Source: Nitrospinota bacterium (lineage in GTDB: Bacteria; JADFOP01). From it: 5,016 nucleotides of DNA. Below, in pieces: positions 2,050-4,767 of the stretch. The notes beneath the pieces were generated by a model that made no database searches, had not been told where the DNA came from, and saw nothing but the letters and a program-made list of their open reading frames with translations. The DNA lies in contig JADFOP010000070.1 of the NCBI GenBank assembly GCA_022562795.1, forward strand, positions 1-5,016, in the 5' to 3' direction. The stretch's first letter is position 1. The number at the start of each line of letters is the position of its first letter. A program made the translations under genes and the position numbers.

Positions 2050-4767
2050 TTACCCGCAGCACTTCTTGTACTTTTTTCCGCTGCCGCAAGGGCAGGGCTC
2101 GTTGCGGCCGATCTTGCGCCCCTCGCGCCGGTAGGTCTCGGGGCGGGCTGCCGCGCCCCCCATGGCCTCGGGCGGCAGCGGCGGCATCCCCTCCTGGGGG
2201 GCGCCAACGGGCATGGCGGGCATGTCGGCCTCGGCGGGGACGTCCAGGAAGATGTCCGCGCGGCTCTCGACCATTCGGCCCGGACGGCCGCGGGGCAGCT
2301 CCACCTCGGTGGGCTCTTCGATGCGGACCTTGAAGAGGAGCTCGACCGTCTCCTCCTTCCACCGCTCCAACGTGGCCTGAAACATCTCGTACCCCTCGCG
2401 CTTGTACTCGTTGAGCGGGTCCTTCTGGCCGTAGCCGCGTAGCCCGATGCCGTCTCTGAGGTGGTCCATGCTGAGGAGGTGGTCCTTCCATAGGCCATCG
2501 AGGCTCTGGAGCATGAAGACTTTCTCCAGGTGGCGCATGAAGGCCTCGCCGAGCTGGGCTTCGCGGGCTTCGTAGACCTCGGTGATGAGGCCGAGGAGGT
2601 GCTCCCGGAGGTTGGCGTGGCTGGCGGGGGTTCCGGCGGCTGAGGCGGCCTCCTCCCACTGCTCGAAGATGAAGGCGAGGCCGAACTGGCGCGAGAGGGC
2701 CTCCCTGAGGCCCGCCAGGTCCCAATCCTCGGTGTAGAGCTCCTCGGCTGCGTATGTATCCAAGGTGGCATCGAGGACATCTTCGATCATCTCCTCCAGC
2801 TCTTCCTTGATCCCCTCCCCTTCGAGGAGCTGGCGCCGAAGCCCGTAGACCACCTCCCGCTGCTTGCTCATCACGTCGTCGTACTCAAGGAGGTGCTTTC
2901 GGATTTCGAAGTTGTGGGCCTCGACCTTACTCTGGGCGTTCTCGATCGCCTTGGTGACCATGGTGTGCTCGATAGGCACCCCCTCCTCCATGCCGAGCTT
3001 CTGCATCATGGAGCTTACCCGCTCGGAGGCGAAAATGCGCATGAGGTCGTCTTCCAGAGAGAGGTAGAAGCGCGACGAGCCGGGGTCGCCCTGGCGGCCG
3101 GAACGGCCCCTGAGCTGGTTATCTATCCGGCGTGCCTCGTGTCGCTCCGTGCTCAGTATGTGGAGCCCCCCGAGCTCCACCACCTCGTCGTGCTCGGCGT
3201 CGGTGGCCTCCTTGACTCTCTGATATACGGCCTCCCACTCCTTCGGCGAAACCTCCTCCGCATCCTTGCCCTCCTTCTTCAGGGCCTCCCTGGTGAGGAA
3301 GTCGGGGTTGCCCCCGAGCAGGATGTCGGTCCCCCGGCCTGCCATGTTGGTGGCGATGGTCACCGAGCCCAGGCGGCCCGCCTGGGACACAATCTCGGCC
3401 TCCCTCTCGTGTTGCTTGGCGTTGAGCACGTGGTGGGGGATGCCCCGGCGCTTCAGCCGGGCCGAGAGGGACTCGGAGTTCTCGATGGAGATCGTCCCGA
3501 CGAGCACCGGGCGGCGCATCTCGTAGAGCTCGGCGATCTCCTCCACCACCGCGGCCCACTTCTCGCCGGGGGTGCGGTAGACCACGTCGGGATACTCGGT
3601 TCGGATGAGGGGCACGTTGGTGGGGATGACCATCACGTCGAGGTCGTAAATCTCGGCGAACTCGGCAGCCTCGGTGTCCGCCGTGCCCGTCATGCCGGCG
3701 AGCTTATCGTACATGCGGAAGTAGTTCTGGAAGGTGATGGAGGCGAGTGTTTGGTTCTCGTTGGCGATGGTGACCTTCTCCTTCGCCTCGAGGGCCTGGT
3801 GGAGGCCCTCGGAGTAGCGTCGCCCGGGCATGAGCCGGCCCGTGAACTCGTCCACTATGATGACCTCGTCGTCCTTGACAACGTAGTCCACGTCGAGCTT
3901 GAACAGAGCGTGGGCCTTGAGGCCCTGGTGGACGTGGTGGAGGGTCTCGATGTTGCGGGGATCGTAGAGGTTCTCCACCTTCAGGAGCTCCTCGACCCGG
4001 GAGATCCCCTCTTCGGCCAGGGCCACCGTGCGGGTCTTCTCTTCCACGGTGTAGTCCTCATCGCGCTTGAGGCGCGGGATGATGCGGTCAATGGTGTAGT
4101 ACTTTTCGGTGGACTCCTCGGTGGGCCCGGAGATGATGAGCGGGGTGCGGGCCTCGTCGATGAGGATGGAGTCGACCTCATCGACGATGGCGTAGACGTG
4201 CGGGCGCTGTACGTAGTCGGCGATATCGAACTTCATATTGTCCCGGAGGAAGTCAAACCCAAACTCGTTGTTGGTCCCGTAGGTGACGTCGCACCTGTAG
4301 GCCTGACGTCGATCTTCGTCGTCCATATCATGCTGGATGACCCCGACGGTGAGGCCTAGGAAGGTGTAAAGCTTGCCCATCCACTCGGAGTCGCGCCGGG
4401 CGAGGTAGTCGTTGACCGTCACCACGTGGACACCCTGGCCGCCGAGGGCGTTGAGGTAGACCGGGAGCGTCGCTACGAGGGTCTTGCCCTCGCCCGTCTT
4501 CATCTCGGCGATCTTGCCCTCGTGGAGCACCACGCCCCCGACGAACATCGTGAATGTCAGCACGCCGATGGCCACGAGGATGGCGCACAGCTCCCATATC
4601 CCGAAGGACACGCGGGCGTCACCGGTGAGCTGGTCGAATATCTCGCGCTGAATGAGCCCAACAGCGTTCTCCAGCACGACCATCCAGAAGACGACCAGTA
4701 GCAGCTCGCCCAGTAGCGGCCACTTAAGGGCCCAGAAGACTCGCAGCAGGTACCGCCAGGTACTCAT
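2050..4767 (-). CDS. secA: SecA preprotein translocase ATPase with an ABC-transporter N-terminus (chimeric ORF)
   Basis: From about residue 79 to 905 this is a canonical SecA, the cytosolic ATPase that drives preproteins through SecYEG. It shows Walker A MKTGEGKT (89-96), NDYLARRD (119-126), Walker B/DEAD-type DEVD (196-199), the preprotein cross-linking domain (about 210-350), AGMTGT (357-362), [11 protein letters not shown] (472-482), [13 protein letters not shown] (551-563), the helical scaffold/wing region (about 585-815), a Met/Pro-rich linker (847-875) and a zinc-binding SEC-C tail, [13 protein letters not shown] (892-904). Residues 1-78 are not SecA. They contain two hydrophobic segments (about 18-38 and 57-80) and ABC-exporter-like text ([20 protein letters not shown]). 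The expected SecA N-terminus is absent, and where a Q-motif like FDVQLxGG should precede VVLHEGK the sequence reads FTMFVGG. The ATG at 4767 overlaps the upstream ABC gene's TGA and belongs to the ABC operon, not to secA. The 905-residue length looks normal only by coincidence. The frame is open throughout, so it is either a join artefact or a true fusion. Confidence 0.93.
4525..4545. other. In-frame breakpoint between ABC exporter and SecA
   Basis: On the minus strand, SecA homology begins at [11 protein letters not shown], and the preceding residues VLTFTMFV belong to a membrane helix. The change falls on the codons for GGV at residues 77-79 (4531-4539). A Gly-Gly-hydrophobic triplet is also expected at this point in SecA (LxGGxVL) and is plausible in the transporter helix. 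A few bases of shared sequence may therefore have guided the join. The exact base is uncertain by about ten. Confidence 0.7.
4534..4767 (-). pseudogene. First ~78 codons of a second ABC exporter (transmembrane domain start)
   Basis: The sequence begins [20 protein letters not shown], then has a hydrophobic helix (about 18-38), a soluble loop with [16 protein letters not shown] (37-52) and a second helix (about 57-80). This is the usual TM1-loop-TM2 opening of a fused TMD-NBD ABC exporter, where a phrase of the type RxFFDxLTG is common. Its ATG overlaps the TGA of the upstream ABC protein by four bases, as in tandem genes for heterodimeric ABC exporters. The rest of the transmembrane domain and the whole ATPase domain are missing, and the frame continues into secA. 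It is listed separately because its function and origin differ from those of the downstream part of the ORF. Confidence 0.72.

Follow-up and report, generated by a model that had tools for sequence, protein, structure and literature searches.

The window analysed here spans contig C70 from end to end (5016 bases). This contig is one of 84 in a 2.15-Mb draft genome that appears to be a short-read metagenome assembly. What does it encode? On the minus strand, an open reading frame (ORF) of 905 codons (4767-2050) opens as an ABC exporter and turns into SecA at about residue 76 (Table 1). Upstream lies another ABC gene, here ABC1, and its TGA (4766-4764) overlaps the ATG of this ORF (4767-4765); the exporter-like start of the ORF itself is called ABC2. 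An earlier note on this DNA had described a single ORF with an ABC-exporter-like start followed by SecA, and this description is confirmed by the start-stop overlap, by Pfam, and by an 85% match of residues 1-85 to a Dehalococcoidia ABC exporter. The Pfam SecA matches lie in residues 75-905 and comprise SecA_DEAD, P-loop_SecA, SecA_SW, SecA_PP_bind and SEC-C. The DEAD, preprotein cross-linking, P-loop and wing/scaffold domains are therefore all represented, with the SecA_DEAD profile entered only from position 83 of 290. From residue 75 on, the ORF resembles the SecA preprotein translocase ATPase in all of its domains, including SEC-C; it differs from that ATPase in that the N-terminal helix, the start of NBD1 and the Q motif are missing from C70. 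ABC sequence stands in place of the native N-terminus, and the stretch FTMFVGG, which the note had placed where the Q motif is expected, is indeed present at residues 72-78. No ABC Pfam match was found in the 905-aa ORF, which holds only ~74-82 N-terminal ABC residues and not a complete ABC_membrane domain with a nucleotide-binding domain.

Table 1. Features of the 5016-base window, with the evidence for each.
Feature	Position	Strand	Evidence
Tyrosine integrase fragment, running off the contig	1..675	-	Phage_int_SAM_3
Nitroreductase without its N-terminal ~62 residues	671..1164	+	79% aa identity to a G001 protein
DUF3891 gene, native, next to secA on its downstream side	1128..1952	+	Pfam PF13030
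secA from about codon 88 to the stop, native; first ~87 codons absent	2050..4544	-	87% to G001, Pfam
Junction word TCGTCGGGGGCGTGGTGCTCCACGA, up to 25 bases, fitting both ABC2 and SecA	4544-4520	-	Base-by-base comparison with relatives
ABC2, first ~74 codons of another ABC exporter, foreign to the genome	4545..4767	-	Dehalococcoidia matches
ABC1, last 83 aa of an ABC exporter whose gene is truncated at the contig end	4764..5015	-	83-aa frame open at the edge

Two sources within one reading frame

Where do the two parts of the ORF come from? The first 79 residues of ABC2 share 87% amino acid identity with the ABC exporter of L042 and 81% with that of L043, loci of two Dehalococcoidia genomes, and the DNA over the ABC1 and ABC2 parts together is 79% identical to L042 across 496 bases. 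The nearest known counterpart is the ABC exporter half-transporter pair of Dehalococcoidia (L042, L043); L042, the better match, has the same ABC1-ABC2 tandem with the same start-stop overlap, and its second gene is complete. The Dehalococcoidia relatives of ABC2 are complete genes of 593 codons from the matching ATG, whereas the window has only the first ~74-82 residues. Searches for ABC2 in G001 (same genus), G002 (same class) and 18 further genomes found no homologue. Likewise, the remainder of ABC2 was not found in the window's own genome, where other ABC genes match it at 33% or less, with the exception of a 24-residue match at 54% (E 0.18). Because the relatives of ABC2 are intact in Dehalococcoidia and the ABC gene is found nowhere else in this genome, a cross-species chimera is indicated. 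Derivation of the ABC piece from a paralogue in the same genome was rejected, as ABC2 matches the only other ABC exporters there, encoded on C15 and C16, at 24-26%.

The SecA part, in contrast, shares 87% amino acid identity from residue 74 with the SecA of G001 and only 55-57% with the SecA proteins of two Dehalococcoidia genomes. Searching the two parts separately, as the earlier note had proposed, thus gives different best matches, Dehalococcoidia for the ABC part and the same-genus genome for SecA, and the alignments demonstrate that the homology sources differ. Inheritance of the fusion within the clade was also rejected: the same-genus and same-class genomes have SecA without an ABC part. 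As a separate observation, the two Dehalococcoidia genomes (L056 in G021 and L057 in G022) each carry a further, more distant SecA-like gene with 44-49% identity over the matched stretches, possibly a second SecA.

The displaced start of secA

The whole genome contains just two SecA_DEAD matches, one on C70 (profile positions 83-289) and one in the first bases of contig C46 (profile positions 2-60), and a second intact secA was rejected on this count. Bases 199-2 of C46 encode a normal SecA start of 66 codons, which reads MFTNLISKFVPSKNVRELRRIQPIVEAVGALEP... up to the contig edge and there runs off; its DNA is 80% identical to the start of secA in G001. In an alignment to the intact G001 gene (919 aa), the C46 sequence breaks off at gene base 199, and C70 takes over from base 263. 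The intervening 63 bases (21 codons) are in neither contig and hold the Q motif, the corresponding stretch of which reads FDVQIVGG in G001 SecA. The N-terminal helix, the start of NBD1 and the Q motif are accordingly either on C46 or in these unassembled 63 bases. The Q motif seems lost because its stretch falls in this gap; judging from the alignment, it has not been lost by evolution but lies in the 63 bases outside both contigs.

Gene order agrees with this reconstruction, and the synteny is demonstrated by comparison with G001. On one contig, G001 carries upstream genes, among them one whose sequence resembles an M23 peptidase, then secA, then DUF3891, which holds the same place beside secA in C233 of G001 as it does in the window. 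C46 is collinear with the side of G001 upstream of secA, and C70 with the downstream side; each matching one flank of the same gene, they are therefore most likely neighbours, with C46 directly before C70. Two long stretches of C46 (L040; 284-2369 and 4277-13330) are largely without a DNA match to G001, and one of them adjoins secA and contains a transposase-like fragment (L002:307-504); this pattern suggests that the unmatched stretches could be insertions relative to G001.

SecA is essential in bacteria, and the role of its Q motif is well established. The organism's real secA is presumably ordinary, and nothing suggests that its SecA is unusual. The earlier note had judged a chimeric join likelier than a working fusion, and the normal secA N-terminus at a contig edge of the same genome supports that preference. 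It had also reasoned that an intact secA and an intact ABC gene elsewhere in the genome would refute a fusion, and this is largely borne out: for secA, the comparison yields the displaced N-terminus within the genome and, in the related G001, the normal gene that the note had suggested looking for, while this particular ABC gene is not present elsewhere in the window's genome.

A join at a common coding word

How were the two genes brought together? The junction word encodes VGGVVLH in both ABC2 and SecA, and this is the only peptide of at least five residues that the two proteins have in common. In 30-base bins of DNA across 4566-4477, identity to the ABC relatives drops from 0.83 to 0.20 and that to SecA climbs from 0.33 to 0.93, demonstrating the position of the switch. 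A join after GGV (residues 77-79) had been proposed; the switch is real, and its placement can be refined to the stretch fitting both parents (Table 1). The frame is open through the join because both genes read the VGGVVLH word in the same frame, as it would be after any join at these codons. A join exactly at a common word is the product expected of a short-word overlap error.

We consider it very probable that the ABC-SecA fusion is an artefact of cross-species misassembly. We propose that, during assembly, the opening part of an ABC exporter operon of Dehalococcoidia type would have been spliced onto the secA of another bacterium. The link would be a word of up to 25 bases, which the two genes would have in common since both encode VGGVVLH. 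The real secA would then have its first 66 codons at the end of C46, ~63 bases unassembled and its remainder in the window. Misassembly is a recognised, though less frequent, source of chimeric contigs in metagenome-assembled genomes (PMC8201837). Like those contigs, the window is a short contig that combines pieces from two sources, its two parts having different nearest lineages and the true partner of one part, the secA N-terminus, lying displaced at the edge of C46; it differs from them in that its junction can be traced to one common coding word. Points against misassembly are that the frame is open through the join, that the longest uninterrupted identity between an available relative and the other gene is 13-14 bases, and that misassemblies are relatively rare in comparison with mis-binning (PMC8201837).

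Could the join instead have existed in DNA? We infer that the error was computational and not a chimeric DNA molecule. A molecule that became chimeric before sequencing, through ligation or through template switching during amplification, and was then faithfully assembled would suit a junction at a common word and two contig ends that both look foreign. It would need amplified low-input DNA, however, and true reads would normally outvote it; we regard it as very unlikely. Less probable still is a genuine recombination event, present in some of the population, that placed Dehalococcoidia ABC operon DNA upstream of secA at the common word; the resulting membrane-anchored SecA would exist alongside normal cells or a normal secA copy: the open frame and a word that could also serve microhomology-mediated recombination would fit, but the secA body is in only one copy with its normal N-terminus in the same bin, the product would be without its first ~87 residues including the Q motif, the remainder of ABC2 is absent from the genome, and the ABC segment is absent from the same-genus and same-class genomes.

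With the fusion almost certainly an assembly error, there is no new kind of SecA here, and no evidence for a membrane-anchored one. The case calls for caution, since joining two genes at a short common coding word can create a plausible in-frame SecA with a membrane anchor, and any database entry for the 905-aa protein is unfit as evidence of a fusion family.

The other end of the contig

A second apparent break lies at ~664-676, where the integrase fragment abuts the truncated nitroreductase on the opposite strand; its presence at the other end of the same contig is a point in favour of misassembly. The nitroreductase aligns to residues 63-225 of a 226-aa protein that is complete in G001, its DNA homology to G001 begins at 671, and its N-terminus was not found elsewhere in the window's genome. 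Viral and phage searches gave no match to the integrase fragment, which has weak plasmid matches (25-44%) to site-specific integrases. This break could be a second misjoin, or it could be a real insertion or an inserted mobile element.
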